Assembly (NCBI GenBank): GCA_945861415.1
Contig: CAMAUV010000013.1
Span: 1 to 64,000 of the forward strand
Direction of reading: 5' to 3'
Length of the DNA stretch: 64,000 nucleotides
From: Akkermansia muciniphila
GTDB taxonomy: Bacteria; Verrucomicrobiota; Verrucomicrobiia; Verrucomicrobiales; V1-33
The position numbers and the translations under genes are program-made. Positions 18,054 to 52,790 of this stretch are shown one piece after another. The notes beneath the pieces are model-generated. The model was not told where the DNA came from, did no database searches, and worked only from the letters and a program-made list of their open reading frames with translations. Every line of letters begins with the position of its first letter. The stretch's first letter is position 1.

Positions 18054-19493
18054 TTATCCGATCACTTCCGGCCAGTCGGTGTGGAAGAATTGGCCTTCGG
18101 GTTTGTCGGTTCGCTCATAGGTGTGTGCACCGAAGAAGTCGCGCTGGGCCTGGAGCAGGTTGGCGGGGAGACGGGCGGCGCGGTAGCTGTCGTAGTAGCC
18201 AAGGCTGGCGCTGAAGGCAGGCGCGGGTATGCCACTGAGGGTAGCGAGGGAGACGACTTCACGCCAGTTTTGCTGGGTGCGGCCGAGGACGTCCTTGAAG
18301 AAGGGATCAAGCATCAGGTTCACGAGACCCGGGTTGCCGCGATACGCATCGGTGATGCGATTGAGGAAGCGGGCGCGGATAATGCACCCCCCGCGCCAGA
18401 TGGCAGCGATGCGACCGAGATCGAGGCCCCAGTTTTTCTTTTCACCCATGGTTTTAATAAGGTCGAGGCCCTGCGCATAGCTGATGATTTTGCTGGCGTA
18501 GAGGGCATCGTGCACCTTCTTTACGAGGTCTGCTTTGGAGACGGTGATATTGACTGCCGGGCCTTTGAGCTCTGCGCTGGCGGCCACGCGCTGCTTTTTC
18601 TGGCTGGAGAGGATGCGTGCTTCCACGGCAGCATTGATGGTGGAAATGACGACAGCATTTTCCGCAGCGTTGAGCAGCGTCCACTGACCCGTGCCTTTCT
18701 GTCCAGCCTTGTCCACGATGAGTTCCACGATGGGAGTTCCCGTTTCCGCGTCTTTCTGCTCTAGCGCTTTACCAGTGATTTGAATAAGGTAACTAAGCAG
18801 TTCCCCCTCATTCCAGTCATTGAAAATGGCGGCCATCTCATCTGTGGTGAATCCGGCGTGTTTGAAAATGTTGTAGGCTTCGCAGATAAGCTGCATGTCG
18901 CCGTATTCGATTCCGTTATGGATCATCTTCACATAGTGGCCGGCGCCGCCGGGGCCGATGTGGATGACGCAGGGCTCGCCATCCACTTTAGCTGCGATAC
19001 TCTCAAAAATGGGCTTCATCACCTCCCACGTGCTGGGAGGACCGCCGGGCATGATGCTTGGGCCTTTGCGCGCACCCTCTTCACCGCCGCTGACACCAGC
19101 CCCGATGAATCGGAGCTTCTTTTCCGCGAGGTAGGCGTCGCGGCGCTCAGTGGCTTTATAGAAGCTGTTGCCGCCGTCGATGATGATATCGTCCTCCTCC
19201 AACAACGGAATGAGTTGCTCAATAACGGCATCCACGGCGTCGCGTTCGGAATCGGTGACCGCATTTGATTTAACCATGATCTGAATCTTGCGCGGGCGCT
19301 TAAGGCTTTTGACGAAGTCCTCTAGCGTGTGGCTACCCACGAGTTTTTTGCCCTGATGCTTGGCGATAAACTCATCAGTCACCGAGGTGGTGCGGTTAAA
19401 AACGGCGATAGTAAACCCGCGGCTTTCTACGTTGAGGACGAGGTTTTGTCCCATAACGGCGAGACCGATTAATCCAAAGTCAGCTTGGCTCAT
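18054..19493 (-). CDS. gnd: 6-phosphogluconate dehydrogenase, decarboxylating
   Basis: Oxidises 6-phosphogluconate to ribulose 5-phosphate, CO2 and NADPH in the oxidative pentose phosphate pathway. The 479 residues match the long homodimeric enzyme: GLAVMGQNLVLNVESRGF (NADP-binding Rossmann), IDGGNSFYKATERR, the catalytic segment GPGGAGHYVKMIHNGIEYGD (active-site K and N), and the C-terminal RDFFGAHTYERTD. The start ATG 19493 is followed at once by the Rossmann strand. It is monocistronic, transcribed away from the esterase gene cluster. OpcA, a helper of the preceding enzyme in the pathway, is encoded at 28492-29586, but zwf is not in the window. Confidence 0.97.
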   Translation of the reverse strand: MSQADFGLIGLAVMGQNLVLNVESRGFTIAVFNRTTSVTDEFIAKHQGKKLVGSHTLEDFVKSLKRPRKIQIMVKSNAVTDSERDAVDAVIEQLIPLLEEDDIIIDGGNSFYKATERRDAYLAEKKLRFIGAGVSGGEEGARKGPSIMPGGPPSTWEVMKPIFESIAAKVDGEPCVIHIGPGGAGHYVKMIHNGIEYGDMQLICEAYNIFKHAGFTTDEMAAIFNDWNEGELLSYLIQITGKALEQKDAETGTPIVELIVDKAGQKGTGQWTLLNAAENAVVISTINAAVEARILSSQKKQRVAASAELKGPAVNITVSKADLVKKVHDALYASKIISYAQGLDLIKTMGEKKNWGLDLGRIAAIWRGGCIIRARFLNRITDAYRGNPGLVNLMLDPFFKDVLGRTQQNWREVVSLATLSGIPAPAFSASLGYYDSYRAARLPANLLQAQRDFFGAHTYERTDKPEGQFFHTDWPEVIG

Positions 19494-19692: not shown

Positions 19693-22600
19693 ATGTCCGC
19701 TCAAGTATCATTGGTTCCCAAATTTCAGCTTTCATCAGCAGCAGCATTACTCGTATGCACCCTGCCCACTCTATCATGCACGGTTTCAGCAAGGGACGAT
19801 TACCCCGACTGGCAAAAGTCAGGCACTATTTTTATCGACACTACACCTCTAGGAGCGAACCTGCCGGCTTCGGCCTCTCTTGAAGGATTTCCGCTACTGG
19901 TGCGCCTACACAAGGACTACTTTGATTTTTCCAAGGCCCTACCGAATGGAGATGATGTGCGCTTTTCCAACGCGGACGGAAAACCTCTAGCTTTTCAAAT
20001 CGAGCACTGGAGTGTCGTCGAGGGCGCAGCCAGCATTTGGGTGCGCATGCCTCAGATCCGGGGAAATAAACGTCAGGAACTGAGAATGCACTGGGGCAAT
20101 GCCACGGCCAGCGGCGAGTCGAACGGTGGCGCGGTCTTCAATGAATCGAACGGATACTTGACCGTTCTGCACATGGGCGAAAAGCCGGTAGATGAAGTCG
20201 GCACGGTGACGCCGGAGGATGAGAAAACCTCCGCGACAGCAGGCATGGTGGGCACCGCGCGGCACTTTGCCGGAGGGCAAGGCATTTTCTGTGGCGAACA
20301 AATCACAAAATTTCCGGTGGGTGCCGCACCCCACAGCACGGAGGCATGGGTGCGCGCAGAAAAGGTGAACGGCAGAGTGATGGCATGGGGCAATGAGCAT
20401 GGACAGGGCAAGGTGGTCATGCACTTCATGAGTCCGCCACATGTCAAAATGGAATGCTATTTTTCCGGTGCGGACGTCGCCAGCGAACGTCTGCCGATGA
20501 ATGAATGGACCCATATCTTCCACACCTATGAGAATGGAAGTTCGCTCATCTACATCAATGGGGTTCTAAGCGGCACCTCCAAAACTCCCAATGCTCCGCT
20601 GGCCATCAAGTCACCGGCGCGGCTCTACATAGGGGGCTGGTACAGCAACTGGGACTTCCACGGCGATGTTGACGAAGTACGCATTTCCGAAGTCACGCGC
20701 TCTGCGGATTGGGTCAAGCTTCAATATGAGAATCAAAAGCCGCTACAAAGCGCGACCGGACCGGTGGTGACTGAACAAACTTCCGGACTCAAGGGCACGA
20801 AGTTCGTGCTAGCCCCTGCCGAAGCAGCCGTGGCCGAAGGAAAGACCGCGCTATTCACCCTGGATGCACCCCACGCCCAAAAAGTTTACTGGACGGTGAA
20901 GAGTGATGGAATTGAGACGATAGAGGCCGTGGACCGCTTCGCATTCACATTTAATGCCGGGCGCGTCACGGGCGACAAAAAAGTGATGATTGAGTGCAGG
21001 GCGGTCATCGCAGGCAGGATGGAAATAAAAGAAATACACATCTCGGTAAGGGAGGCGATTCCTGATCCCGTGTTTACGCTTAAAGCTCAGAAATCATGGG
21101 ATGGCCGTAAGGCAACCGATGTGCTCATCGAGACTGCCGGGAATACGGGAGAGGCGAAAACCACATGGAGCGCCGGGCCGTTCGCGGTGAGCAAAGAAAC
21201 GACCACCGCAGGCCTCCGACTGACGCGCGCCCAGAACAGTGGCACGCTGACCGTTTCCGCCACCATGGATAATGGCGGCCAGCCAGTGACACAAAGTGTC
21301 TCCATCGAAGTCACCGAGCCGAAATCAGACCCGTGGGTCACCCGCACTCCGGACAAAAACGAAAAACCAATGGAGAGACAGTTTTATGCCCGTGACGACC
21401 GAAACGAGGGCACACTCTTCTGGAATGGTATTCTGACGGAAGCTGCCGATAAAGTGTTCCTCAAGCTCTACGCGGATAAAAAACTGATCCACACAGACAC
21501 TGCCGCGCCTGCTGCCGACCGTTCATACTCTCTTTCAGCAAAGCTGAAGCCCGGGCTCATTCGCTACAAAGCCGAATTTGGAATCAGCAATGGGGCCAAT
21601 GAGACCGTGAAGGAAATCGTGAGCGATCTCGTGTGCGGCGATGTGTTCATCATTAACGGTCAGTCCAACGCGCTTGCCACCGACACCGGTGAAAAATCCC
21701 CGGCGGTAACGAGCGAATGGATTCGCAGTTACGGCCGACCTGAGGGTGACGGGAAATTGGGCGAAGGTAATTTATGGTGCCGGCCGGTCTGGAAGGCGCA
21801 GAACGGTGAGAAGGCGGAGTTGGGCTGGTGGGGCATGGAACTGGCCAAACAACTCGTGGACAGTCAGAAGGTGCCGGTATTCATCGTAAATGCCGCCGTG
21901 GGTGGGACTCGTATCGACCAGCACCAGCGAAGCATGAGCGATCCCTCCGACTTGCGTACAATTTACGGCAGGATGCTGTGGCGCGTGCAGCAGGCTAAAC
22001 TGACCCACGGGATTCGCGCTATTCTCTGGCACCAGGGTGAAAACGATCAGGGCGCAGACGGCCCCTCGGGCGGCTATGGATGGGAGACATACCAGAAATA
22101 TTTCCTAGAGATGTCCGCAGGCTGGAAACACGATTTCCCCAACGTGCAGCACTACTACGTTTTCCAGATTTGGCCGAACTCCTGCGCCATGGGCGGCAGT
22201 CATGGTTCAGGCGACATGCTGCGGGAAAAGCAGCGGACGCTACCGCAGCTTTTTTCCCGCATGAGCATCATGTCCACGCTGGGGATTGTTCCTCCCGGCC
22301 CCTGCCACTATCCACTGCTAGGCTGGTCGGAGATTGCCCATTTAGTCCAGCCAATGATCGAGCGAGATCTTTACGCTAAGAAGCCAGTAAAATCGATCAC
22401 GCCGCCAAATCTAGTATGGGCCTCGCTTGGCGAAGACAAGGACAAGGTCGTGCTCGAATTTGATCAACCGGTGAAATGGAAAGAGGCACTGGCCGGACAG
22501 TTTTATCTGGATGGAGAAAAGGGCAAAATAGCCACAGGAAGCGTCGCCGGAAATGTCGTGACATTGCAATTGAAGGAGCCGTCCAGCGCCACGCGTATCA

Positions 22601-22704
22601 CCTATCTGAAAGAGGTGTCATGGAATCAGATAACTCTGCTCGAAGGAGAAAACGGAATCGCTGCCCTCACCTTTTGCAATGTGCCCGTGAGAACCAACCA
22701 GTAA
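19693..22704 (+). CDS. Secreted SGNH esterase with DUF2341 and LamG-like domains
   Basis: A 1003-residue exported protein with an N-terminal signal (hydrophobic segment near residues 13-30). DUF2341 (GFPLLVRLHKDYFDFSKA, and HWGNATASGESNGGAVF) is followed by a concanavalin/LamG-like fold (TRSADWVKLQYENQKPL), Ig-like spacers, and then a sialate O-acetylesterase-type SGNH hydrolase. Its blocks are INGQSNALA (nucleophile Ser in GQSN, near residue 655), LWHQGENDQG near 778 and CHYPLLGWSEIA with the catalytic His near 870. It probably removes acetyl groups from a polysaccharide or sialic acid. It opens the four-gene co-directional block; the next gene starts 17 bases after its stop. A modest AGGAA precedes ATG 19693. 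Confidence 0.88.
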   Translation: MSAQVSLVPKFQLSSAAALLVCTLPTLSCTVSARDDYPDWQKSGTIFIDTTPLGANLPASASLEGFPLLVRLHKDYFDFSKALPNGDDVRFSNADGKPLAFQIEHWSVVEGAASIWVRMPQIRGNKRQELRMHWGNATASGESNGGAVFNESNGYLTVLHMGEKPVDEVGTVTPEDEKTSATAGMVGTARHFAGGQGIFCGEQITKFPVGAAPHSTEAWVRAEKVNGRVMAWGNEHGQGKVVMHFMSPPHVKMECYFSGADVASERLPMNEWTHIFHTYENGSSLIYINGVLSGTSKTPNAPLAIKSPARLYIGGWYSNWDFHGDVDEVRISEVTRSADWVKLQYENQKPLQSATGPVVTEQTSGLKGTKFVLAPAEAAVAEGKTALFTLDAPHAQKVYWTVKSDGIETIEAVDRFAFTFNAGRVTGDKKVMIECRAVIAGRMEIKEIHISVREAIPDPVFTLKAQKSWDGRKATDVLIETAGNTGEAKTTWSAGPFAVSKETTTAGLRLTRAQNSGTLTVSATMDNGGQPVTQSVSIEVTEPKSDPWVTRTPDKNEKPMERQFYARDDRNEGTLFWNGILTEAADKVFLKLYADKKLIHTDTAAPAADRSYSLSAKLKPGLIRYKAEFGISNGANETVKEIVSDLVCGDVFIINGQSNALATDTGEKSPAVTSEWIRSYGRPEGDGKLGEGNLWCRPVWKAQNGEKAELGWWGMELAKQLVDSQKVPVFIVNAAVGGTRIDQHQRSMSDPSDLRTIYGRMLWRVQQAKLTHGIRAILWHQGENDQGADGPSGGYGWETYQKYFLEMSAGWKHDFPNVQHYYVFQIWPNSCAMGGSHGSGDMLREKQRTLPQLFSRMSIMSTLGIVPPGPCHYPLLGWSEIAHLVQPMIERDLYAKKPVKSITPPNLVWASLGEDKDKVVLEFDQPVKWKEALAGQFYLDGEKGKIATGSVAGNVVTLQLKEPSSATRITYLKEVSWNQITLLEGENGIAALTFCNVPVRTNQ

Positions 22705-22721
22705 GCACCATCCCTAAATGC

Positions 22722-25412
22722 ATGAACTTTCGCCCGTTCTCACTTCTGAGCCTCTTCCCTGCCCTGCTGCCTGCTATGGCGGTGTCCGCCTTTGCTGCGC
22801 CGCAACTCCCCGGCCTCTCGGCCGATGCCGACCCAGAAATAAAAGGTCAAGTGCTGATTGAGGAACTGAACTGCGCTGCCTGTCACTCCGGCGGGGAGGA
22901 ACTGAAGGCCGCATCCAAAAAAGCCCCCCGCCTCGCCGCAGTGGGCTCCCGGGTGAATCCGGCATCTCTGGAGGTGTTCCTCAGCGATCCTCATGGAGTG
23001 AAACCCGGCACGACCATGCCGGACGTGATGAGTCCGCTGGGAGTTGAAGAGCGCAAGCTGGCCGCCACCGAACTGACCCACTTCCTGCTCTCGCTGAAGA
23101 AGAACGACTTCGCACCCGAACCCCCGGACTCCGTGGCGGCAGCAAGAGGGAAACAGCTCTTCCATTCACGCGGCTGTGCCTCGTGCCACGCGCCTCGCGA
23201 TGACAAAGCGGCGGAACTGCCGATGAAGAATTCGGTGCCGCTCGGCGCGCTCGAAAAGAAGTACAGTTTCAAGAGTCTCACCAGCTTCCTCCAGCAACCC
23301 CATCTCAGCCGCCCATCCATCCGCATGCCGGATATGAGGCTCAGCGGACAGGACGTAGAGCGCATTGCTCACTTCCTCCTGCAGGGCACCAAAGTGCCAG
23401 GCAAACTCGCCTACACCCTGTATCGCGGCAATGTATGGGAGGGCCTCAATAGCGCGGAGGTCACGGCGGAGCGCGCCGGGCATGTCGGTAACTTTGCGCT
23501 TACCAGTCTGGGCAAGGTGCAGCATCACACCGCTATCCGCTATGATGGCTGGATGAATTTGGCGCATGCCGGACGTTATAAATTCTTCCTGACCATGAAT
23601 GGCGGCTCTCTCGCCATCGACGGCAGCGCTTTAGTGGAGCAGGAACCGAGCGACCGCCGAGGAGTCAAAGAACTGAATAGCTCCGCAGAGCTTGCGGCGG
23701 GCTGGCGGCGCATAGAACTGACCTACTTCCACACTGGCCGGGATGCGAAGTTCTCATTCGAAATGGAAGGACCGCAGTTCGCACGGCAGGCACCGCCGCC
23801 TTCCATGCTGTCAGTGGCAAGTGAGCACGTTCCGACCTTTGCTCCCCTTAAGGCTGACTTGGCCCTTGCCACCCGCGGCCGCGCCCGGTTCGCAACCATT
23901 GGCTGCGCCAACTGTCACGATGACCTGCAGGTTCCGCCCGTTCCTGCAACTCCGCTGGTGGAGCTTGATGCCTCCCGCGGATGCCTGAGCTTCACTGCGG
24001 GTGCATGGCCGCGCTTCGATCTCAGCAATGAGCAACTGGAGTGGATCCGGACGGCCCTGCCCCAGGCAGAGAAGCCGGAGTTCAATGACAAACAGCGAAT
24101 CGACAAAACGCTACTGCAACTCAACTGCATCGCCTGCCACGAACGCACGGGTCTCGGCGGCATCGCTCCGGAAAGAAACCCTCTGTTCACCGGCACACAG
24201 CCCGGACTGGGAGATCAGGGCCGACTGCCTCCTCCCCTGTCCCATGTGGGGGCCAAGCTTCAGCCCCGCTGGATCAGAGAGGTGCTCCTTAATGGAAAAC
24301 GTCAGCGCAATTACCTTGATGCTTCCATGCCGCAGTTTGGCGAGGCCAATGTCGGGCATCTGGCCGACTTGTTCGGAAAAGTAGACAAACTGGAAGAGGC
24401 AACCTTACCAAAAGTGACGGACATTCTGGAGTCGAAAGACGCAGGCTATCAAATGGTCGGCACCAATGGTCTCGGGTGCATTGCCTGCCATGAATTTAAC
24501 GGACAAAAAGCCGGGGAAATGAGCGCTCTCGATATCGCTAATGTCACTGACCGGCTTCAGAAGAACTGGTTTGCACTGTACATGCGCCAGCCATCGCGCT
24601 TTCATCCTACAGTGATCATGCCCAGCTACTGGCCGGACGGAAAAGCAGTGCGCCCTAACATCCTCGGCGGGAACACCGCGCTGCAAATTGAGGCTCTGTG
24701 GACGTATCTGGCCGATGGCGAGCGGGCGAAAAAGCCGGCGGGTCTCTCTCGGCAGTCAAACGAATTGCGAGTAGGCGATGTGACAGAAATCTGCCGCGGG
24801 CAAAGCCCTGTGGGCTATCGTGGCATCGGCGTGGGATATCCGGAGCGCATCAGTCTCGCCTTTGATTCTGGTGAGATGGCGCTGCGGCAACTTTGGAAGG
24901 GAGAGTTCGCGAGTGTGGACCTCGGCCACTTTCGTCCGAGCGGCACAGATCCGATCACCTTTCCTCCGGGCATTCCCTTTCACCGGCTCAAGTCGATGGA
25001 CGATAACTGGCCCTACAAGGGGAAGACGAATCATGCCTTTCCTCAGGATCATGGCTATCAGTTCCGCGGATACCATCTTGATGCCGCGCGGCGGCCCGCA
25101 CTGCGTTATCAATACGGAGACATCGCCGTGGAGGATCACTTTACAGACCTGCTGGACAAGGACAAGAAAGCCTACTTTCGGCGCACACTCAACTTCGATG
25201 CACCCGCCACACAGTCGCAATTTTACTTTCGAGTGGCGGCCGGGAAAGAGATCACTGCCGTATCGGAGCGTGTTTTCAAAGCGGGCCCGCTGGAGCTTAG
25301 GATCACAGGAGAACAAAAGGGAATCGTCCGCAGCGGCGAACCGGCGGAAGTGCTCATCCCTCTGATCCTGCCCGCCGGGCGCGCAAAGCTCACTCTGGAA
25401 TATCAATGGTAG
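22722..25412 (+). CDS. Secreted five-heme cytochrome c with PA14 domain
   Basis: An 896-residue exported protein with a signal peptide (FSLLSLFPALLPAMAVSAFA) and five CxxCH heme sites: CAACH (near residue 50), CASCH (about 151), CANCH (about 395), CIACH (about 468) and CIACH (about 585). Between the second and third lies a PA14-like sugar-binding domain (YDGWMNLAHAGRYKFFLTMNGGSLAIDG). The C-terminal part (from about 690) is a beta-rich region without hemes. This combination is typical of PVC-group periplasmic electron carriers that accept electrons from sugar dehydrogenases. It probably works with the beta-propeller protein encoded next. The start 22722 was set at the signal peptide. Confidence 0.88.
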   Translation: MNFRPFSLLSLFPALLPAMAVSAFAAPQLPGLSADADPEIKGQVLIEELNCAACHSGGEELKAASKKAPRLAAVGSRVNPASLEVFLSDPHGVKPGTTMPDVMSPLGVEERKLAATELTHFLLSLKKNDFAPEPPDSVAAARGKQLFHSRGCASCHAPRDDKAAELPMKNSVPLGALEKKYSFKSLTSFLQQPHLSRPSIRMPDMRLSGQDVERIAHFLLQGTKVPGKLAYTLYRGNVWEGLNSAEVTAERAGHVGNFALTSLGKVQHHTAIRYDGWMNLAHAGRYKFFLTMNGGSLAIDGSALVEQEPSDRRGVKELNSSAELAAGWRRIELTYFHTGRDAKFSFEMEGPQFARQAPPPSMLSVASEHVPTFAPLKADLALATRGRARFATIGCANCHDDLQVPPVPATPLVELDASRGCLSFTAGAWPRFDLSNEQLEWIRTALPQAEKPEFNDKQRIDKTLLQLNCIACHERTGLGGIAPERNPLFTGTQPGLGDQGRLPPPLSHVGAKLQPRWIREVLLNGKRQRNYLDASMPQFGEANVGHLADLFGKVDKLEEATLPKVTDILESKDAGYQMVGTNGLGCIACHEFNGQKAGEMSALDIANVTDRLQKNWFALYMRQPSRFHPTVIMPSYWPDGKAVRPNILGGNTALQIEALWTYLADGERAKKPAGLSRQSNELRVGDVTEICRGQSPVGYRGIGVGYPERISLAFDSGEMALRQLWKGEFASVDLGHFRPSGTDPITFPPGIPFHRLKSMDDNWPYKGKTNHAFPQDHGYQFRGYHLDAARRPALRYQYGDIAVEDHFTDLLDKDKKAYFRRTLNFDAPATQSQFYFRVAAGKEITAVSERVFKAGPLELRITGEQKGIVRSGEPAEVLIPLILPAGRAKLTLEYQW

Positions 25413-25485
25413 TGACCATCGCCCGCCGTTCAGACACTCACGGATTTTTTACTCTCGCCGCTCATTCAACTTCTGCTCCGATTCC

Positions 25486-25824
25486 ATGTTCACTACTAAC
25501 AAGTTTATCCTTTCCCTAGTTGCCGCCATGCCGATAACAGGCCCGGCCCGGCCCGCGGGAAGGGAAGCGGATCTGGAGACACTGTGCGGCAAAGCCGCCG
25601 GTGGCGACGCGCAGGGGCAGTTCGACCTCGTCCTCCGTCTCAGTGATGGAAATGGAGTGAACAAAGACAACGCCCAAGCCATGAAGTGGGCCCCCCAGGC
25701 AGAAGATTACAGCATGCCGCCGGTCTCGCTGGACGCATTGCACAAGAGACAACTGTATTTACTTATCTGCTCGACCAATCGGGCACTACCGACCGGAACA
25801 GGTCACGGCATGACCGCCGCGTGA
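25486..25824 (+). pseudogene. Probable remnant of a Sel1-repeat secreted protein
   Basis: After a short signal-like N-terminus (MFTTNKFILSLVAAMPITG), GDAQGQFDLVLRLSDGNGV and NKDNAQAMKWAPQAED read like one Sel1 repeat (A-x-x-x-L-G-x-x-Y-x-x-G-x-G-V-x-x-D-x-x-x-A-x-x-W). Only this degenerate repeat is present, and the tail (DALHKRQLYLLICSTNRAL) has no repeat character, so the protein seems truncated or decayed. A genuine 112-residue protein cannot be excluded. It separates the cytochrome gene from the beta-propeller gene. Confidence 0.4.
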
Positions 25825-25861
25825 TTGACGGCCGTCTTCAGCGGCTTAAGAAAGCTCTATC

Positions 25862-27355
25862 ATGGCTCGCTTTTTCATTTCACTCGCATTGGCTGCGCCG
25901 CTCATCTCGACTACCCTCCTTGCAGAAGAGGATTTGGGCGAAATGTGGGGCACTGCAGCCGAGGAGGCGAAGTATTTCCCTCTGGTCAACATTTCCATCC
26001 CGCCCAGTGTGCCGATACGCCCTGGGGGCCTTGAAATCCTCCCGGACGGAAGACTGGCCGTTGGTACCCGCCGCGGAGACATCTACTTTATTAAAGGCGC
26101 TTTCGATTCCCCGCCTCAGCCAGAGTATCATCTGTTTGCCAGCGGTCAGGACGAGATTTTTTCACTGGCATGGCGGGACGGAGCCATGACGACGACCACA
26201 TGGGGAGAAGTGACCCGAATTTCCGACACTGACGGCGACGGAGTAGCCGACAATTATCATACCCTCACGAGCAACTGGGGTTATGCCGAAGGACATGAAT
26301 TCGCCTTTGGCTCAGAACCAGACCCGCAGGGCAATATCTGGGTGGCGCTGGGGCTGAGCGGTTCTTATGAATCTCACAATCTTTTCCGCGGCTGGGCGGT
26401 GAAAGTGACGCCGCATGGAAAGATGATTCCCGTATGCAGCGGCCTACGGAGCCCGGGTGGGGTCGGAGCTAACGCGCAAGGGGCCATGTTTGTCATTGAA
26501 AGTCAGGGTCCATGGAATGGCTGCTGCTCACTTAAGCATTTAAAAGAGGGCGCCTTTCTCGGGCACCCGGCCAGCTACAATTGGTATCCCTACGTTCCCG
26601 GCATGAAGGCGCCTAGCGCACAACCGAAGAGCGATTCGCGCATGAGCCTTGAGAAAAAGCGGGTGAAGGAACTGGTGCCTCCCGCAGTGAAGTTTCCCTA
26701 TATCAAAATGGGACGTTCCATTTCTGGATTCAGGCTCAACACGACCGGCGGAAAATTTGGCCCGTTTGAAAACCAGATTTTTCTCGGCGACTATACTACC
26801 AGTGTCATCCTGCGGGCGACGACCGAAATGGTGAACGGGGTGTGGCAGGGCGCTTGTTATCCCTTCCGTGAGGGACTCTCCACCGGTATCATGAATGTGG
26901 AATTTTCCCCCAAAGGACAACTCATTGCCGCAGGGTTCACCACCAACCGCCAGTGGCCCGTGCGCGGCTCCGAACCGTTCGCGCTGCAGCGCATCGACTG
27001 GAATGGTGTAATGCCCTTTGAGGTCAAAGAGATTAATATCCGGAAGGATGGCTTCGTAGTTCACTTCACCCTTCCAGTGGAAAAAGATTCCGCGTCGAAT
27101 CCGGGTTCATACGGTGTCACAACTTACACACACATCTATCATGCCGGCTACGGCAGCCCGGAAGTGGACCATAACACCCCCCGGGTCACGTCCGTCGTGC
27201 CATCAGGTGATGGACTCTCAGTGTATGTAAAACTCGACCGGATTACAGAAGATCACATTCACGACTTTGACTTCAGCAAACTCACCGCGGAGGACGGCCG
27301 GCCTCTGCTTCACAGCAAGGCCTACTACACGGTGAATGAGATTCCGGCGCAATGA
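25862..27355 (+). CDS. Secreted beta-propeller protein (DUF7133 / PQQ sugar dehydrogenase-like)
   Basis: A 497-residue exported protein, signal peptide MARFFISLALAAPLISTTLL. The body is a beta-propeller of the kind found in PVC-group membrane-bound dehydrogenase proteins (TIGR02604/DUF7133 type): PGGLEILPDGRLAVGTRRGD, RISDTDGDGVADNYHTL, LRSPGGVGANAQGAMFVIES, and NWYPYVPGM. Sugar dehydrogenases with this fold use PQQ or calcium; here the D-x-D-x-D-G turn could bind calcium. It has no heme of its own, unlike many homologs that carry one at the C-terminus, so the five-heme cytochrome encoded upstream is a natural partner. The catalytic status and substrate are not evident. Confidence 0.85.
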   Translation: MARFFISLALAAPLISTTLLAEEDLGEMWGTAAEEAKYFPLVNISIPPSVPIRPGGLEILPDGRLAVGTRRGDIYFIKGAFDSPPQPEYHLFASGQDEIFSLAWRDGAMTTTTWGEVTRISDTDGDGVADNYHTLTSNWGYAEGHEFAFGSEPDPQGNIWVALGLSGSYESHNLFRGWAVKVTPHGKMIPVCSGLRSPGGVGANAQGAMFVIESQGPWNGCCSLKHLKEGAFLGHPASYNWYPYVPGMKAPSAQPKSDSRMSLEKKRVKELVPPAVKFPYIKMGRSISGFRLNTTGGKFGPFENQIFLGDYTTSVILRATTEMVNGVWQGACYPFREGLSTGIMNVEFSPKGQLIAAGFTTNRQWPVRGSEPFALQRIDWNGVMPFEVKEINIRKDGFVVHFTLPVEKDSASNPGSYGVTTYTHIYHAGYGSPEVDHNTPRVTSVVPSGDGLSVYVKLDRITEDHIHDFDFSKLTAEDGRPLLHSKAYYTVNEIPAQ

Positions 27356-27389
27356 ACAACCACCGGCACACCTTTTACTTTCTCAACTT

Positions 27390-28412
27390 ATGATCCGTCC
27401 GCTCCTTCGCTTTCTTTTTCTGCCACTTATCACCGCATGTGTTTCCAAGGCTAAAGACATCCCAAACTGGCTGACATGGCAAGGTGGCGAGGGCCCGGGG
27501 AAAGGGAAGCGCATTGTACTAATCGCGGCGGATCAGGAATACCGCAGTGAGCAATCCATGCCGATGCTGGCAAAGATTCTGAGTTCCCGGCACGGTTTCG
27601 AATGCACGGTGCTGTTCGGCGTGAATGAAAAAGGCGAGGTGGATCCAACGATGCCAGTTTATCCGGAAAAGGGACAGCCGCTGAAAGAGCACCACATTCC
27701 TGGACTGGAACAACTTACGTCCGCGGACCTCGTGATTTTCTTTCCGCGGCTGCTTACCCTGCCAATGGCTGAGCGCGAGATGATCGTGAAATACATCGAT
27801 TCCGGAAAGCCGATCATCTCGCTGCGGACCGGGAATCACGGGTTCCACGCGCAGCTGCCCTACAAAATCAATGGCCGGCAGGTAGGATGGGGTGAAGACG
27901 TGCTGGGAGGGGCATTCATGGAGCACCACGGGCACTACCAAGCAGACTCCACCCGGGGCAACATTGTGCCGGAGCAAAAAAACCATCCGATTCTTTACGG
28001 CGTGAGTGACATCTGGGGCGACTCAGACGTTTACCGTACCTACAAGAAGGGCAGCAGCCTTCCGGAAGGCTGTACGGCGCTGGTGTGGGGGCAGCCGCTC
28101 ATGGGACGAAAGCAGCGAGATGCGCCTAATCCTGAACTGGAACCCCTGCCCGTAGCGTGGTTCAAATACTGGGAGACTAGTGTAGGAAAAAAGGCGCGTG
28201 TATTTCATTCTACTATGGGCAGCGGTAGCGACCTGCAGAATGCCGGACTGAGGCGTCTTATCATCAACGCCGCCTATTGGTGCATGGGAATGGAGGCGAC
28301 GATCAATCCGGCAAGAAGTGTGGACATCGTCGGCGCGTATGCGCCGCTGGAGAGCGGATTTGATTACAAGCGAATCGGCGCGAAGCCCCGGCCAGTGCAG
28401 GCATACAAATAG
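27390..28412 (+). CDS. ThuA-like secreted protein (class I amidotransferase-like fold)
   Basis: A 340-residue exported protein with a signal peptide (RPLLRFLFLPLITACVSKA; a C near residue 17 could be a lipidation site). The fold is ThuA/trehalose-utilisation type: IVLIAADQEYRSEQSMPMLA at the start, LTSADLVIFFPRLLTLP, and TGNHGFHAQ near the centre, then HPILYGVSDIWGDSDVY. HSTMGSGSDLQNAGLRRLI is the C-terminal signature, followed by AAYWCMGME. ThuA relatives act in keto-sugar metabolism of disaccharides. Its position after the beta-propeller gene, with 34 bases between them, supports a role in the same sugar pathway. The classical Cys-His-Glu triad of amidotransferases is not evident. Confidence 0.88.
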   Translation: MIRPLLRFLFLPLITACVSKAKDIPNWLTWQGGEGPGKGKRIVLIAADQEYRSEQSMPMLAKILSSRHGFECTVLFGVNEKGEVDPTMPVYPEKGQPLKEHHIPGLEQLTSADLVIFFPRLLTLPMAEREMIVKYIDSGKPIISLRTGNHGFHAQLPYKINGRQVGWGEDVLGGAFMEHHGHYQADSTRGNIVPEQKNHPILYGVSDIWGDSDVYRTYKKGSSLPEGCTALVWGQPLMGRKQRDAPNPELEPLPVAWFKYWETSVGKKARVFHSTMGSGSDLQNAGLRRLIINAAYWCMGMEATINPARSVDIVGAYAPLESGFDYKRIGAKPRPVQAYK

Positions 28413-28491: not shown

Positions 28492-29586
28492 TCACGCCAT
28501 TATGCGCTCCACCATTTGCAGCAAAGTAAAATAGAGCCGCGTATTGCAGCCGCGACGGAGTCGCTCAATGACGAGTTCCACCGGCGTCCGGCAGGGACAG
28601 GGGGTGAGCCTTTCGAAAGTGCCCGCCGGTGTCGCGACCCGTGCATGAATGAAGGGGCTGTCGTCCCCGTGCGTAAGCTGAACGTCGAGACCTGGACCGC
28701 GCAGACAAACGGAGGGCACCGGGGACACCGAACTCACTTCGTGAAAGCGGAGACGCAGTTTCCGCCCGCCATTGGTAAAGTGGATCTCAACTCCCGCGAC
28801 GACCACCTCCTGCAATTTCCACCCCGCCCGGAAGGCGGCCCATGCAGCGAACAAGTGCCCGGGTAGGGTGTGCCCCGCAGCGCAGGTGATTTCCACCGCA
28901 TCGACCTGCGGCAGCAGCGCAAGCGCCGCCGGGTCATCAAAGCATGCCGCCAGCGCCATGCGCAGGCTGAGCACGCGGGTCCATGCGATGTCATTCACGC
29001 TGAAATCGCTGGCGGTGTGCCGCCATGACCGGCGCAATATGGAGAACTGCGTGAGCGGGTCCACCCATTCACTGCTGTCGATCACGAGGCGGTCGATCTC
29101 AGTAAAAAAGTGGGGCTCCCAGTTACCGTTGAAGTTTCCCTGCCACCAGACGGTGAGCGGAAGATCGCTGTCCACATGTGCGAAAATAGTGTTCGCGAGG
29201 ATGCTCTGGCCGCTGCCGTGAACGAGGAAGCTGATTTGTTCACTGCAAATGCTCTTGTTGCCTCCGTCGCCAAGCTGGCAGTGTGCGGTGATCCACGCCC
29301 GGAGCGGCGGCTCACGCTCTGAGGGGTCCACCACCAATAACAGCGCCCGGCAGGCGTGCTCACGCGTCACTTCCTGAATGAGGGCTGTGCCCGCTTCCAT
29401 ACCGTCGGCGCTGCCGGAAACGATTGCGAAATTCATTAGCGAAGCCCGGGTCATGGCCTCATTGCTGTCCCACAGTGCCTTCAAATGGCGCTCGATCCCA
29501 CACACCGGCACCTCTTCCCCCGGTCCCGGGATGGGGGAGCCGGTTTGCTTCGGAAGCGTGGCGGATTCAGTGGCAGTTGAGGTCAT
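28492..29586 (-). CDS. opcA: Glucose-6-phosphate dehydrogenase assembly protein OpcA
   Basis: A 364-residue helper that activates glucose-6-phosphate dehydrogenase (Zwf), known from cyanobacteria and actinobacteria. The diagnostic segment SEQISFLVHGSGQSILANTI and then FAHVDSDLPLTVWWQG matches the OpcA core, preceded by RALLLVVDPSEREPPLRAW. A C-terminal OpcA region follows (RLRRGCNTRLYFTLLQMVER). The start ATG 29586 is preceded only by non-conserved sequence. zwf itself is not next to it. It is divergently transcribed from the sigma factor gene and convergent with the thuA-like gene. Confidence 0.93.
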   Translation of the reverse strand: MTSTATESATLPKQTGSPIPGPGEEVPVCGIERHLKALWDSNEAMTRASLMNFAIVSGSADGMEAGTALIQEVTREHACRALLLVVDPSEREPPLRAWITAHCQLGDGGNKSICSEQISFLVHGSGQSILANTIFAHVDSDLPLTVWWQGNFNGNWEPHFFTEIDRLVIDSSEWVDPLTQFSILRRSWRHTASDFSVNDIAWTRVLSLRMALAACFDDPAALALLPQVDAVEITCAAGHTLPGHLFAAWAAFRAGWKLQEVVVAGVEIHFTNGGRKLRLRFHEVSSVSPVPSVCLRGPGLDVQLTHGDDSPFIHARVATPAGTFERLTPCPCRTPVELVIERLRRGCNTRLYFTLLQMVERIMA

Positions 29587-29755
29587 GGGAAGATCACGGC
29601 AGAAGGGAGAAAGCTGCCCTGCTTCCTTCAATCCCGCAGAGTTCCAGCCCGCAAGCGGCAATCCTCCTCTGCCCCGCCTCCTGTAGTATTTGCGTCCGGT
29701 TCTGGACGGGGCGGCAGAAGTGAGTTACCCTCATCCCATCCTACACGCCGCCCGC

Positions 29756-47953: not shown

Positions 47954-50900
47954 TTAGGGACTAGTGACGCGGGCGCGCAGGAAGAGGCGGATGCCGACGG
48001 GGGCTCCGGGGGCACTATAGGTGAGGGTTTCTGTGTCGTTGCCGTTGGATACGGTGCTTAGCGGGCCTCCGCCTATGGGTGTCCAGCTGGCTCTGGGGTC
48101 AGTGGAGGACTCGATGATCCAAGTGAGGTCCGTAGTGCCTGCGCGGCGCACAAAGCTGGCGCGTCCGGGCTGGCTATCGGCGGCTAGGGCGATGGACTGC
48201 TCAGCGGCACCGGAGGTGCGGGGATCGGTGCCAGCGGCGTATTCACCGAGGTTGTTGAGTCCGTCTCCGTCGGTGTCGGCGGCCATGCCCTGGTTGGGGA
48301 TGTCGCCATCGGCAAAGTAGCGGCGCTGCCAGCGGGCGAAGTTGGTGACGGCGCTGCCGCCAGGATCGTGGCTCACGCGCCAGTTCGCAGGCAGGTTTTG
48401 GTCGCCGCTGACGTGGATGAGGGAGTAGCCGTTGTCCGGGGCGGCGGGCCAGTTATCGCCGGGGCCGCTGCCATCGCCGTAGATGAAGTCGGAGATGATG
48501 GCTCTGGTTTTGTCGTTGAGCACAATATGCTCGCCGCCGTCGTCGAGTTCACCATTGAACTCGCCGAGGATGGTGAAGCTGGTGCCGTAGCGGCTGATGA
48601 AGGCGGCGGTGTTCTCCACCACCACGACGCTCGCGCCGGCAGGCAGCCAGTTTTGCAGGCCGGGCACGGCCGTGAACTCGAGGCCGTTGGAGAAGTAGAT
48701 GCCCGTGAGATCGACAGGAGCGGCTCCGGTGTTGGTGAGGCGGATGAACTCGAAGTCGTTGGAGTTGGTCCAACCGTTGAGGACTTCATCCGGCGATGGG
48801 GGCGGCGGGTGGTAGTGGACTTCTGTGATCTGGATGCTGGCCTGGCTGGCGGCTACGGCACCGGGGAAGTAGTAGAGCACGGTGGGTGCGCTCCAATTGG
48901 AGCCGTTGGGCACGCTGCCGGTACCGCCGCCGGACTGCGTGGGCGGATCGCTGGGGCGAACGGGATTCACTGTGCGGACGTAGAGCGCCGTAGGGGCGTT
49001 GATGACGATGGGCACGGTGAATTCGACAGCGGCGGGATCTAGGTCTGGCGTGAAGGGCGGCGGCGGGCCCTGGACAATGATCTTTGCGCCCATGATTAAG
49101 TCGCTGCTGGAGAGGCCGGAGTTCAGGCCGTGAATGGCGAGCACATTTTCGCCAACATGAAGGGCGGAAAGGAAGGACGTGATGATGTAGTCTGTGTACT
49201 GAACGGCGCTGGTATCAGCAAACGTGGCGGAGGCAGCGGAATTGAACGCCAAGTTCGCGATCGCCGGGGCATTGACCCGGGCGGTGGTGAGTTCCGTGCC
49301 GTTGATCCATGCGACAAATCCGTCGTCGTGGCGCATCTGGAGCACGAGGCGATTCCCAGCCGTGGCGGCGAGGGCAAGATCGCCCGCAGTGACAGTGAAG
49401 GGGAAGCGCAGGTAGCAGCTCTGATTGCCTGCGTAGTTAGTACCGTTGATGAAGCCGCTTCGCATCACGGTGTGCGTGGCAATGGGGGAAACCGGCAGCG
49501 GCACTGGAGCCGGCACAGTAGCATTGTGGAAGCTTGTCCCATTCCAGCGCACACTGATGAACGGAAGATAGTCCGTGCCGGTTCCGGCAGGAACCGTGTC
49601 GTCATACCCCACGCCGTTGAGCGTGCCGGCGGGATTGGTGAACCAGGTGGAGTCATTGAAGTCATCCTGGTTGCTGCCGTTGCCGTTGAGGTCGGCACCG
49701 CGCCATTCGGTGCCGGTATTATTGGGCGCCGTGGGACCGGCACCCGTGGCATTGCTGGTGGGAACAATGGTGCGCACCGTGCCAATGTCGCTCATCATAG
49801 TCGCGATTGTCGTAAATCCGCCGCCCGGAGCGAGGGTTACGGTGGCCCGGGGACGGGGATCTGCGTCGTTGGTGGTGTAGTAAATCTTGACTCCCGTGGT
49901 GGCTAGGCTGGGGGAAGTAAGGGTGATGGAACTGCCGGCGGGCACGGGGCCGGATGGCTGGCTGGCGGTGGCGGGCCGGGTGAACTGGTTGTCCATGAAG
50001 TTGAGCCGGCTGGCCCACCAGTGTTTGAGCCATGCGATTTCACCCGGGTAGGTGCCGTTGAAGGTGTTGTTCGTAATGGCAGTGTTGCTGCCGGCACCGC
50101 GGGGCGTCTGGCCCCACCGGGCGATGTTGCGCTTGGCTGGCGTGGTGGTGGTGTCGCCGGGATTGACCTGGGCAACGAATTCATCAATGCGGGCATGGAC
50201 GGAGGCCGTGCTCCATGGACCCTGACGCCACAGGTGGTAGCGGTCGATGAAGAGCTGCCAGAAGTTCGGGTCTTTGAACATCTCATTGAACCAAGGGTAG
50301 TGAAAGAAGTCGGTGCCGAGGTCGCCAACGTCGCCGCGCCATGTGTCCCAGCGGAAGTCCCGTCCGTCCGTGGAGCCTTCGGCACGGTCAAAGTCCCAGA
50401 TAGGCCCGGCGGTGATTTTTCCGAACCGCGGCTTGTGCCAGTAGGCGCTGAGTCGGTTGGCGTCGGCGTTCTTGGTCATGATGTTGAGCAACTGATGGTC
50501 AACGGCGGCGTGCGCGTCGAAGTATTTGGCGTAGCCATTCACCGGGTCCATGAAGAGGGAGAGGTTGTTGAGCACGGACCACGCCTCGCCGATGTGGCCG
50601 CGGAGGTAGGTGCTCTGCGCAGTGGTGATGCGCTTGAAGGGATCGAGCGAAACCTCGCGCGGGTTCACATAGCCCATCTGATTGACGGGGCCAAAGCTCT
50701 GACCGGCGAGCGGCGTGATCCCGCCCTCACCGGCGTCAAGGCGGTCCACCTTGAACATGTAGCCGCCCTGGACAGCGGGAGCGGCGTTATCGGCGATGGT
50801 CAGATTCTCTACATCCACACGGTTGTTACCGCGGGTGATTTTTTCCATGAAGCTATAGACGCCGAAGTAGTCGCCGCTGGGCGCGGCACCGGTGGCGGTG

Positions 50901-52591
50901 GTCCCCTCGACGGTGTTGGTCGCGGACTGCACGTTGTGGAAGTGCTCGATGAACTTGGTCCGCACGGCGTAGCGCCCGATGTCATTGCTCATGCGGTAAA
51001 TGAGGTCGTTGTGCATCAGCGACCGGTCGAAGTTGTACGGCGCGTGCATGATCCAATCCGACTCCCCCGGCAGGCCGAGGGGGGAGCGGTTCTGGTCAAT
51101 GCCAAACTCGTCCTGCATCTCGCAGGCCATGGAATACTTGGGATCTCCAGCGGTGGAGGATCCGCGGCGCTCGAGAGCGCAAGGGGAGGCAAGATCGGGC
51201 AGATTGGTTAGCCGGGCGAGATCGTCCGTGGCTTTTGGCTCGAAAATGAGGACATGCCCCGGCACCACCACATCACTGGACATGGGGGTGTTCCATGTGT
51301 GCGTGAGGACAATGGGCAGGGGTGAGGTGAAATTCTGCGCATTGGCGTCGATGGCGAAATACATCTCACTGATGGGTGGGCCGGGCGGGCGGCCGGCTTC
51401 AAATGCGCGGGCTCGAACACGGGTATTGATGGTCACGGGAATACGAGTCGTGTAGGCCGGGGAGGGCGTGCGGAAGACGGTATGGATGCCGGTGCCCGCA
51501 GTAGTGATGTCGAGGATGGGGGTCAGTGCTGGCGAAGCGGAGAGCCGGAAACTGGAGGTGGAACTGAAGACAACATAGTAAGTCGTGCCCGCGACTACCC
51601 CTCCTGGGAGCGTGCCCGTGGTGCTCACCTGGACGGGGTCTCCGCCGAAAAAGGTATTCGCGACGGGAGTGGTGAAAACGTCCGTGGTAGCCGCGGTGGC
51701 GGCGAACGCATCGCGCCGCAACGTATGGGTTCCACCTGCCGTGAGATCAATGGGCGGGCCGCCAGGCTCGATGGCAAGCTTGAAGGTGTTCGCAGAGAGG
51801 ACGGCGACGAAGTAATTCACTGAGGCCACCAGCGGGGCGGGGCCGCTCACGCGCACCATGTCGTTCTGGCTCAGGCCGTGCGCCGTCATGGTGCAGACAT
51901 CCGTGGCGGCATCGGCGGTATAACTGCCGGTGATTCCCGCGACGCCGATGGGCAGCGAGCGGTTTGTGGTGAAGCGGACAACCGCCGTGGGCGATGTCAC
52001 GCTGAGGGCGACGTTTTGCGTGGTGCCGTTGTTGAAAGCCTTACTAGGGGGCGTGAAGACCACCGACTCCGCGGGTGCACCGGCAGAATTGTTCAGCGCG
52101 CCGGGCGTGGGCGTAGTGAAGAAGGCGCTGCCAGCCCCTGCCGTAGCTGCCAGCAGGCCGTATGAAACATCGCCGCTCTGCACGGGATACGGCGCCCAGC
52201 CGGATACGACGGGCGTGCCACCAGGGGCGTTGAGCTGAAGGTCTTCCCCAGCACTGCTGAGGGAGAAATTGGTGTGCAACGGGGCGCCGGCCACAGTCCG
52301 GTTTTTGCTGCTGGCAAAGACGACAAGGTAGCCGCCGGGCGCAATGGTGACGCCGACGGGAAACGTCCATCGGGTGGGCAGCAGAGCATCATCGGTAAGA
52401 TGGTAGCCGCTGAGATCGGCGTCCACGAGGTCGGGATTGTGGATCTCGATCCAGTCCTGCCGGATTATGTCCTCGTCGAAGATGCCGATATTATTGTTCG
52501 TAAGAAACTCCGTGATGATGGGAGCAGCAGTGAGAGCCGGGGCGGTAAGGATGACTGCGGCGGTGACGGCATAAGGAAGGCGTGGTCTCAT
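47954..52591 (-). CDS. Large secreted LTD/CotH kinase-like surface protein
   Basis: A 1545-residue exported protein with signal peptide (RLPYAVTAAVILTAPALTAA) and several domains. It has a lamin-tail domain (IITEFLTNNNIGIFDEDIIR, then WIEIHNPDLVDADLSGYHLT), chitobiase-C/Ig-like repeats, and a CotH kinase-like domain from about residue 445 (PGHVLIFEPK, DWIMHAPYNFDRSLMHNDLI and YGVYSFMEKITRGNNRVDVE-like segment; metal motif WDFDRAEGSTDG near 732). Further Ig-like repeats follow (GVKIYYTTNDADPRPR, near 900), a second LTD from about 1255, a D-x-D-G-D-G turn near 1439 (DTDGDGLNNLGEYAAGTDPR) and a C-terminal beta-sandwich. CotH kinases phosphorylate surface proteins in spore formers; here the partner is unknown. 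Two dead genes nearby share its C-terminal type. Confidence 0.88.
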   Translation of the reverse strand: MRPRLPYAVTAAVILTAPALTAAPIITEFLTNNNIGIFDEDIIRQDWIEIHNPDLVDADLSGYHLTDDALLPTRWTFPVGVTIAPGGYLVVFASSKNRTVAGAPLHTNFSLSSAGEDLQLNAPGGTPVVSGWAPYPVQSGDVSYGLLAATAGAGSAFFTTPTPGALNNSAGAPAESVVFTPPSKAFNNGTTQNVALSVTSPTAVVRFTTNRSLPIGVAGITGSYTADAATDVCTMTAHGLSQNDMVRVSGPAPLVASVNYFVAVLSANTFKLAIEPGGPPIDLTAGGTHTLRRDAFAATAATTDVFTTPVANTFFGGDPVQVSTTGTLPGGVVAGTTYYVVFSSTSSFRLSASPALTPILDITTAGTGIHTVFRTPSPAYTTRIPVTINTRVRARAFEAGRPPGPPISEMYFAIDANAQNFTSPLPIVLTHTWNTPMSSDVVVPGHVLIFEPKATDDLARLTNLPDLASPCALERRGSSTAGDPKYSMACEMQDEFGIDQNRSPLGLPGESDWIMHAPYNFDRSLMHNDLIYRMSNDIGRYAVRTKFIEHFHNVQSATNTVEGTTATGAAPSGDYFGVYSFMEKITRGNNRVDVENLTIADNAAPAVQGGYMFKVDRLDAGEGGITPLAGQSFGPVNQMGYVNPREVSLDPFKRITTAQSTYLRGHIGEAWSVLNNLSLFMDPVNGYAKYFDAHAAVDHQLLNIMTKNADANRLSAYWHKPRFGKITAGPIWDFDRAEGSTDGRDFRWDTWRGDVGDLGTDFFHYPWFNEMFKDPNFWQLFIDRYHLWRQGPWSTASVHARIDEFVAQVNPGDTTTTPAKRNIARWGQTPRGAGSNTAITNNTFNGTYPGEIAWLKHWWASRLNFMDNQFTRPATASQPSGPVPAGSSITLTSPSLATTGVKIYYTTNDADPRPRATVTLAPGGGFTTIATMMSDIGTVRTIVPTSNATGAGPTAPNNTGTEWRGADLNGNGSNQDDFNDSTWFTNPAGTLNGVGYDDTVPAGTGTDYLPFISVRWNGTSFHNATVPAPVPLPVSPIATHTVMRSGFINGTNYAGNQSCYLRFPFTVTAGDLALAATAGNRLVLQMRHDDGFVAWINGTELTTARVNAPAIANLAFNSAASATFADTSAVQYTDYIITSFLSALHVGENVLAIHGLNSGLSSSDLIMGAKIIVQGPPPPFTPDLDPAAVEFTVPIVINAPTALYVRTVNPVRPSDPPTQSGGGTGSVPNGSNWSAPTVLYYFPGAVAASQASIQITEVHYHPPPPSPDEVLNGWTNSNDFEFIRLTNTGAAPVDLTGIYFSNGLEFTAVPGLQNWLPAGASVVVVENTAAFISRYGTSFTILGEFNGELDDGGEHIVLNDKTRAIISDFIYGDGSGPGDNWPAAPDNGYSLIHVSGDQNLPANWRVSHDPGGSAVTNFARWQRRYFADGDIPNQGMAADTDGDGLNNLGEYAAGTDPRTSGAAEQSIALAADSQPGRASFVRRAGTTDLTWIIESSTDPRASWTPIGGGPLSTVSNGNDTETLTYSAPGAPVGIRLFLRARVTSP

Positions 52592-52790
52592 TTCTTCCAA
52601 ATACCTGAGCCCAGCGCCACACGTCAACTTTCATCTCCAGAAAGAGTCGAACCATTTGAAACCCTTGCGGCTTCGCGCGGTCGAAGGAACAACTTTCTCT
52701 TGCGGTTGAACCGGGAACTCCGTAGATTTTCCCCCCATGTTTCTGCCCGGAAATGCATCTCCCGCCCTCCGAATTAGACAATTTTCAACT

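Follow-up and report, generated by a model that had tools for sequence, protein, structure and literature searches.

The window, the 64,000-nucleotide stretch of Akkermansia muciniphila DNA analysed here, encodes a five-heme cytochrome, a beta-propeller and a ThuA-like protein in consecutive order, and these form a real conserved secreted unit that is widespread in the Verrucomicrobiota. Its likeliest predicted function is extracytoplasmic carbohydrate oxidation, served by an electron acceptor of its own. The esterase gene preceding them (gene 1), which an earlier note on this DNA had counted as a standing fourth member, is a local addition outside the conserved core.

Gene order and its conservation

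All four open reading frames were confirmed on the + strand with the positions and spacing previously given (Table 1), bearing out the description of four genes in one direction with small gaps, as 17 bases separate the esterase gene from the cytochrome gene and 34 bases the propeller gene from the ThuA-like gene. The cytochrome-propeller gap is 449 bases. A 978-aa reading frame beginning at 22476 was rejected as the cytochrome gene in favour of 22722-25412, its upstream start being an artefact.

Table 1. Features of the locus, with positions in the window
Feature	Position	Strand	Basis
DUF2341-LamG-SASA (SGNH) carbohydrate esterase, secreted, 1003 aa; local neighbour outside conserved core	19693..22704	+	Pfam PF10102, PF13385, PF03629 above cut-off; orthologues elsewhere in relatives
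Five-heme c-type cytochrome, 896 aa, signal peptide; core gene 1	22722..25412	+	CxxCH motifs; Cytochrom_C PF00034; alignment with partners
PA14-like region of cytochrome, approx. residues 226-352	23397..23777	+	Alignment with Pfam-recognised PA14 of copper-type partners; no Pfam call in window protein
Cytochrome C-terminal domain, ~residues 680-896, DUF6797 (PF20601) family by homology	24759..25409	+	tblastn; PF20601 in L045 and orthologous locus G035:C52
Probable relic of ancestral propeller start (ATGGTA, 7-base overlap with cytochrome stop)	25406..25412	+	CAATGGTAA/G junction as in relatives
Sel1-like secreted gene remnant, 112 aa, within derived 449-base insertion	25486..25824	+	Match to intact 432-aa Sel1-type protein
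Secreted beta-propeller, 497 aa, PQQ-sugar-dehydrogenase fold; core gene 2, presumed catalytic subunit	25862..27355	+	AlphaFold2, Foldseek; weak DUF7133/TIGR02604
Secreted ThuA-like protein, 340 aa; core gene 3 in ~57% of close relatives	27390..28412	+	Orthologue L031 PF06283; fusion in L051; adjacency 41/72

To assess conservation, 80 loci were drawn from named genomes with the propeller as the sole criterion. Of the 76 that could be assessed, all from other species, 67 have a same-strand cytochrome gene immediately upstream of the propeller gene and 70 have one no more than three genes away; because of this recurrence the order cannot be put down to chance. Partner and propeller are neighbours again in more distant paralogues (~42% identity). 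A ThuA gene comes next after the propeller in 41 of 72 loci, with a median gap of 19 bases, and is missing from ~43% of close loci and nearly all distant ones. Flanking genes do vary between genera, which would fit an accidental adjacency of genes that work separately, but the cross-species adjacency, the overlapping reading frames and the recurrence in distant paralogues refute such an accident for cytochrome and propeller, and we give it next to no credence.

In close relatives the most frequent cytochrome-propeller junction is a 7-base overlap (45 of the 78 close-clade gene pairs measured). The CAATGGTAA/G junction at the end of the window cytochrome is a working overlap of this kind in many relatives, and its ATGGTA is probably a relic of the ancestral propeller start. 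The intervening 449 bases are a derived insertion. The reading frame inside it matches residues 4-75 of a relative's Sel1-type protein (42% identity, E 3e-11), and since these residues belong to an intact protein of 432 aa, 'N-terminal remnant' is the right label and the dead Sel1-like gene previously noted in the middle gap stands.

The proposed SGNH esterase is, by Pfam, a SASA carbohydrate esterase: DUF2341, LamG and SASA each exceed their cut-offs (SASA, PF03629, 49.6 bits against a gathering cut-off of 24.8). Full-length orthologues, 46-66% identical, occur in at least eight relatives on contigs other than the one carrying the cytochrome-propeller pair, and none adjoins that pair among the loci examined; a conserved four-gene module including the esterase was therefore rejected. 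The repeated adjacency across Verrucomicrobia that the earlier note looked for is thus found for cytochrome, propeller and ThuA but not for this esterase. The 17-base gap on the same strand would favour a single dedicated deacetylation-oxidation operon of all four genes, as does a modest enrichment of SASA-family genes among near same-strand neighbours of the propeller (9/219, against 2/298 for other genes; Fisher p = 0.011), and the genome to which the window belongs has a SASA paralogue 52 bases upstream of a gene whose product combines GDSL esterase, DUF7133 propeller, HEAT and cytochrome c. Set against the separate location of the orthologues, and with any SASA gene close by in only seven close-clade loci, such an operon is distinctly unlikely. 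From the enrichment and the paralogue, the earlier idea of deacetylation followed by oxidation keeps some indirect support.

Domain architecture, redox centres and fusions

The AlphaFold2 model of the propeller (mean pLDDT 85) has the six-blade fold of PQQ sugar dehydrogenases, in agreement with the sugar-dehydrogenase-like character first ascribed to it. Its top Foldseek matches in the PDB are the PQQ sugar dehydrogenases 2ism, 1c9u, 3a9g and 3das (E 2e-12 to 2e-8), with the AA12 structure 6jt5 also among the matches; the TM scores by target length are 0.5-0.7, and the likeness therefore holds at fold level only. Profile searches of the PDB by sequence with the propeller and ThuA families returned only designed-repeat-protein artefacts, or nothing. 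Membership of PF07995 was rejected, there being no match even at E <= 10, as was membership of TIGR02604 (21.1 bits, far under the cut-off of 122.2), the propeller also having no CxxCH motif, as had been said of its missing heme domain. DUF7133 (PF23500) is narrowly missed at 26.0 bits against 27, and the ThuA-fused relative L051 scores 29.6.

The canonical PQQ residues appear only partly traceable. By hhalign the GLRSPGG block and R196, which is invariant, align with the GLRNPWG block of GSDH; because this register is plausible but of low probability, the residue equivalences are tentative. In the sequence alignment H145 is invariant but offset from the position of sGDH His144, the Asn229 position is tentatively a Ser, and no equivalents of Lys377, Arg406 or Arg408 were found, nor was the Ca2+ loop traceable. 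The strongly conserved polar residues H145, E146 and R196 suggest a putative active site. The PQQ synthesis gene pqqC is absent from 57 of 57 relatives, the same search finding it in six genomes of the phylum; this is compatible with scavenged PQQ, and the cofactor may be PQQ, scavenged, or another.

The cytochrome has exactly five CxxCH motifs (residues 51, 152, 395, 469 and 586), as previously counted, in the order two cytochrome c domains, PA14, three cytochrome c domains and a DUF6797-like C-terminal domain. Pfam reports no PA14 in the window copy, but the region aligns with the Pfam-recognised PA14 of copper-type partners, which supports the original assignment. Residues ~700-896 match heme-less partners at 28-32% (tblastn), and both L045 and the orthologous locus G035:C52 score above the PF20601 (DUF6797) cut-off, so that the PA14-DUF6797 chassis beside the propeller is found at the window locus too. 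This C-terminal domain is common to all partner types. Pfam found generic cytochrome c domains only and none of the PSCyt1/2/3 domains (PF07635, PF07583), and PSCyt membership was rejected. The open-access literature held nothing specific on DUF6797, DUF7133 or the cytochrome-propeller gene pair.

The redox module on this chassis differs between relatives: five-heme, copper (PF00127) or single cytochrome c (PF00034), with a blue-copper domain or single cytochrome c replacing the five hemes in the distant paralogues. Copper-type partners keep C-x4-H-x4-M in 18 of 18 cases and an upstream His motif in 16 of 18. Heme and copper labels placed on the propeller tree need one change, and the single-heme partners L047 and L062 branch apart from one another within the copper-type clade. 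The strongest argument for a redox function is this swap of heme and copper on one chassis. Fusions support the links among ThuA, propeller, DUF6797 and cytochrome: ThuA is fused to the propeller in L051, beside a five-heme partner and two 3-keto-disaccharide hydrolases, DUF6797 to the propeller in L090 and L095, and cytochrome, DUF6797-like domain and propeller form one chain in L066 of the window's own genome. With one dedicated partner per propeller, such single-chain fusions and the independent exchange of redox centres argue for a specific electron-transfer partnership, and the earlier choice of the separate cytochrome as the propeller's partner is well supported.

The ThuA-like call also held, though the window copy itself is below the Pfam threshold: its 78%-identical orthologue L031 scores 37.1 for PF06283 against a cut-off of 33.4, and L051 also passes. 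An AlphaFold model of this protein from a single sequence (pLDDT 36) was left out of the evidence, as were sulfatase neighbour counts obtained with an over-broad profile. Genes for 3-keto-disaccharide hydrolases and Gfo/Idh/MocA proteins are not significantly enriched near the propeller, and their general linkage to it was rejected; the L051 and L049 loci are no more than suggestive.

Proposed function and its alternatives

We consider it fairly probable that the core works as a two-component oxidoreductase that is secreted and in most cases has a third, accessory gene; the propeller would oxidise a saccharide and the PA14-DUF6797 protein accept the electrons. The propeller would most likely act as a dehydrogenase on a saccharide hydroxyl outside the cytoplasm; PA14 may bind the glycan and DUF6797 may serve to dock the propeller, and electrons would enter at the partner's variable N-terminal region (five hemes here, one heme or type-1 copper in relatives) and go on to the respiratory chain. 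Binding or processing of the oxidised (keto-)sugar is the likeliest task of the ThuA-like protein, and esterases and sulfatases would be optional, lineage-specific extras that unmask hydroxyls. As a more tentative possibility, the system may represent an undescribed class of extracytoplasmic carbohydrate dehydrogenase in the Verrucomicrobiota, with a PQQ-dehydrogenase-like propeller, an unconventional cofactor or cofactor site, a PA14-DUF6797 acceptor whose centre, multiheme, monoheme or blue copper, is exchanged in evolution, and a keto-sugar route, dependent on ThuA, by which glycans are opened through oxidation and not via glycoside hydrolases.

The propeller might instead cleave glycosidic bonds, directly or with the help of oxidation, the cytochrome recycling a transient redox step. 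The verrucomicrobial Lac161_ORF7 (TIGR02604, HEAT and cytochrome c), which has a related propeller domain, when purified released glucose from lactose with a Km of 1.8 mM, and complementation by its cosmid was seen in S. meliloti but not in E. coli (PMC5342196); two 3-keto-disaccharide hydrolases adjoin the fused L051 copy, and DUF1080 proteins have been proposed to work with glycoside 3-dehydrogenase (PMC9007349). The distance of the window propeller from TIGR02604, the Lac161_ORF7 assay having measured glucose only, by oxidase kit, and the needlessness of five hemes or a copper site for net glycosidase activity make this unlikely. A reading in which the propeller is a scaffold that binds without catalysing, and the cytochrome belongs to general respiratory or extracellular electron transfer, is very unlikely: the incomplete PQQ signature, the lack of pqqC in relatives and profile matches of neighbouring GSDH sequences to HHIP, a non-enzymatic propeller of the same superfamily, are consistent with it, but the conserved polar residues suggest an active site, and the dedicated, fusible partner with its exchangeable redox centre implies specific electron transfer between the two.

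Numerous secreted cytochromes of the Verrucomicrobiota have carbohydrate-binding parts and no assigned function (PMC5615132). The present pair, minimal and conserved, offers a tractable way into this group: its partner is clear, it occurs naturally fused, its redox centres are interchangeable, and it predicts a specific electron-transfer reaction that two purified proteins would suffice to test. Reduction of the pair by sugars, if it occurs, would reveal an oxidative attack on glycans outside the cytoplasm and point to roles for DUF6797, one branch of PVC propellers and the secreted ThuA proteins.

Comparison with known systems

The PQQ sugar dehydrogenases (sGDH and aldose sugar dehydrogenase, PF07995) share the fold, supplying all top PDB matches, and their GLRNP block resembles the GLRSP block with its invariant Arg; the window propeller differs in matching no PF07995 profile, in a tentative Ser at Asn229 and an uncertain placement of the catalytic His, in hosts without pqqC and in its dedicated PA14-DUF6797 acceptor. 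The fungal AA12 pyranose dehydrogenase CcPDH joins an AA8 cytochrome b, an AA12 PQQ propeller and CBM1 (PMC6881789). Its plan of sugar-oxidising propeller, cytochrome acceptor and carbohydrate-binding module is like the one predicted here from genes, its host likewise has no known PQQ synthesis, and 6jt5 is among the fold matches; the present system is bacterial, with another cytochrome type, two polypeptides, PA14 in place of CBM1, and multi-heme and copper variants.

The TIGR02604/DUF7133 propeller-HEAT-cytochrome c proteins such as Lac161_ORF7 (PMC5342196) also have PVC hosts and a distantly related propeller, but carry cytochrome c in-chain, whereas the window propeller falls below the cut-offs of both models, has neither HEAT nor heme and relies on a separate carrier. 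The planctomycete-specific PSCyt1-3 cytochromes with DUF1501 partners, encoded beside sulfatases and of unknown function (PMC5615132), are likewise secreted PVC cytochromes with a carbohydrate-binding module such as PA14; the window cytochrome has no PSCyt/PSD domain and a different partner family. With the LacABC glycoside 3-dehydrogenase and DUF1080 hydrolase and the ThuAB 3-keto-sugar pathway (PMC9007349, PMC6515357) the system would share the idea of periplasmic saccharide oxidation before hydrolysis, and it has the ThuA family in common, with DUF1080 and Gfo/Idh/MocA genes at some loci; this linkage is occasional and not general, and a propeller stands in place of the LacABC-type dehydrogenase.

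Conservation of the gene neighbourhood

The four genes lie on the plus strand at the positions proposed in the earlier note (19693 to 28412), with intergenic gaps of 17, 449 and 34 bases in that order, and two pentose-phosphate genes flank them on the opposite strand (see table). The opcA gene sits beside a zwf-like gene in three of the four relatives whose opcA surroundings were fully read, none of which has the module there, and the opcA-zwf pairing is absent from the window.

Features of the window and of related loci
Feature	Location	Strand	Remark
gnd	18054-19493	-	pentose-phosphate gene, flanks module
DUF2341-LamG-SASA esterase	19693-22704	+	
Five-heme cytochrome	22722-25412	+	
Beta-propeller	25862-27355	+	
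ThuA-like protein	27390-28412	+	
opcA	28492-29661	-	pentose-phosphate gene, flanks module
1557-aa protein	47954-52627	-	CotH kinase and lamin-tail domains
Sulfatase (PF00884)	57565-58977	-	~30 kb off module
Prolyl-oligopeptidase genes	L031:3383-5497; L072:7766-9946; L091:7821-9932		three genomes
Tandem copper-type pairs	L049:6488-15128		own genome, contig C40
Single-chain fusion	L066:7779-10481		own genome, contig C41
SASA paralogue and multidomain gene	L199:8831-15011		own genome, contig C24

Relatives (n = 57) were queried with the propeller and their neighbourhoods retrieved; 80 loci in named genomes were gathered by propeller alignment only, and neighbours were scored from our own gene calls and profile searches, many of the genomes being fragmented MAGs with automatic species names in their titles. 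Cytochrome, propeller and ThuA show the repeated adjacency that the earlier note proposed as a check: of 76 assessable loci, 67 have the cytochrome as the same-strand gene immediately upstream of the propeller and 70 have it at most three genes away, and ThuA is the next gene downstream in 41 of 72. On the propeller tree ThuA adjacency is restricted to a single inner clade (64 sequences), where it has changed repeatedly. Of 78 close-clade pairs measured, 45 have a 7-base overlap between the end of the cytochrome gene and the start of the propeller gene, and the median propeller-ThuA gap is 19 bases. Because the flanking genes vary from genus to genus, the gene unit is self-contained.

The window cytochrome ends in ...CAATGGTAG, and in relatives the identical string ...CAATGGTAA/G is a functional overlap with the propeller start. 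Since the same junction string is a working overlap there, the window appears to retain a relic propeller start at 25406, and the 449-base gap is a derived insertion. What is left of a Sel1-like gene, its N-terminal part, lies inside the gap and shares 42% identity with residues 4-75 of a 432-aa Sel1-type protein from a relative.

Other arrangements were also seen. At one locus (L086) the cytochrome is upstream of the propeller at a distance of ~7 kb, and the genes between them include a DUF1501-like one. In three genomes the gene immediately upstream of the propeller encodes a prolyl-oligopeptidase, and in two of these (L031, L072) it sits between cytochrome and propeller. Downstream of the propeller, four loci of one MAG group (L042, L136, L137, L139) share a distinct gene set: a HODM-like heme oxidative demethylase, a glucuronyl-esterase/FGE-sulfatase protein, a DUF7133-HEAT-cytochrome protein and a Gfo/Idh-type gene.

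Exchange of the redox centre and gene fusions

Beside distant paralogues of the propeller (~42% identical) the upstream gene still codes for a partner-type protein with PA14 and the cytochrome's last ~200 residues, there recognisable as DUF6797. These copper-type partners contain no heme and carry at the N-terminus a copper domain of the plastocyanin/azurin type (PF00127), with a Cys-x4-His-x4-Met motif in all 18 examined and an upstream His motif in 16. At two further loci (L047 and L062, on separate branches inside the copper-type clade) a single cytochrome c replaces the copper domain. The multiheme and copper labels require one change on the tree of 106 propellers, a quick tree with some long branches. 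As PA14-DUF6797 is kept while the type of electron carrier is exchanged, it is difficult to account for this constant chassis with a swapped carrier unless the neighbouring protein passes electrons to it. Copper-type partner and propeller pairs also occur in tandem in the window's own genome (L049), the second apparently broken into fragments, with genes for a Gfo/Idh/MocA protein and a 3-keto-disaccharide hydrolase on either side.

The components also occur as fusions. ThuA (PF06283) is joined to the propeller in one protein at L051, a locus apart from the ThuA-adjacency clade on the propeller tree, where the fusion adjoins a 5-heme partner and two 3-keto-disaccharide hydrolases; at L090 and L095 the propeller is joined to DUF6797. 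A 900-aa chain encoded in the window's own genome (L066) combines cytochrome c, a DUF6797-like region and propeller, and is the two-gene module within one polypeptide.

Esterase, propeller fold and proposed function

The esterase, previously counted as a fixed fourth member, is a local neighbour: its full-length orthologues (46-66%) in at least eight relatives lie on contigs separate from the cytochrome-propeller, in varying company, e.g. a 3-keto-disaccharide hydrolase or a PSCyt/DUF1501 pair. SASA-family genes in general show modest enrichment in the propeller's vicinity (9/219 vs 2/298, p = 0.011), and an own-genome SASA paralogue (L199) ends 52 bases ahead of a gene whose product combines GDSL-esterase, DUF7133, HEAT and cytochrome c domains. 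Genes for other secreted heme proteins cluster with the L199 pair. The suggested coupling of de-esterification to oxidation is plausible as an option and not as a fixed module.

The best matches of the propeller model (AlphaFold2 from 41 sequences, pLDDT 85) are PQQ-dependent sugar dehydrogenases (2ism, 1c9u, 3a9g, 3das and the AA12 domain 6jt5). The sequence itself has no match to PF07995 and scores below the cut-offs of DUF7133 and TIGR02604. Its GLRSPGG block, with invariant R196, tentatively corresponds to the GLRNPWG block of GSDH; Ser occupies the position of sGDH Asn229, H145 is invariant with a spacing that differs from that of His144, and the remaining PQQ contacts could not be traced in the propeller sequence. 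The pqqC gene was not found in the 57 relatives though the same search detects it elsewhere in the phylum (strong matches in 6 of 289 genomes); PQQ is a candidate cofactor of the propeller. Fungi bearing AA12 likewise have no known PQQ pathway (PMC6881789).

The most likely reaction of the propeller is oxidation of a hydroxyl group on an extracytoplasmic saccharide. In this model the glycan may be bound by PA14 and the propeller may dock on DUF6797, electrons would travel by way of the hemes or copper toward respiration, and the keto-product would be dealt with by ThuA. The analysis demonstrates the conserved pairing, the exchange of redox centres, the fusions and the fold, from which catalysis, the class of substrate, cofactor, product and the direction of electron flow are inferred. 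A bond-cleaving role for the propeller is a live rival to oxidation, because a distant relative is reported to free glucose from lactose (PMC5342196). The enrichment analysis shows no significant general linkage between the propeller and neighbouring DUF1080 or Gfo/Idh genes.

The open-access literature, which omits most subscription papers, yielded no description of DUF6797 or of the cytochrome-propeller pair. The window module falls within a broader group of PVC cytochromes that are still unexplained (PMC5615132), and its plan is similar to that of the fungal AA12 dehydrogenases, which combine a cytochrome, a PQQ propeller and a carbohydrate-binding module.
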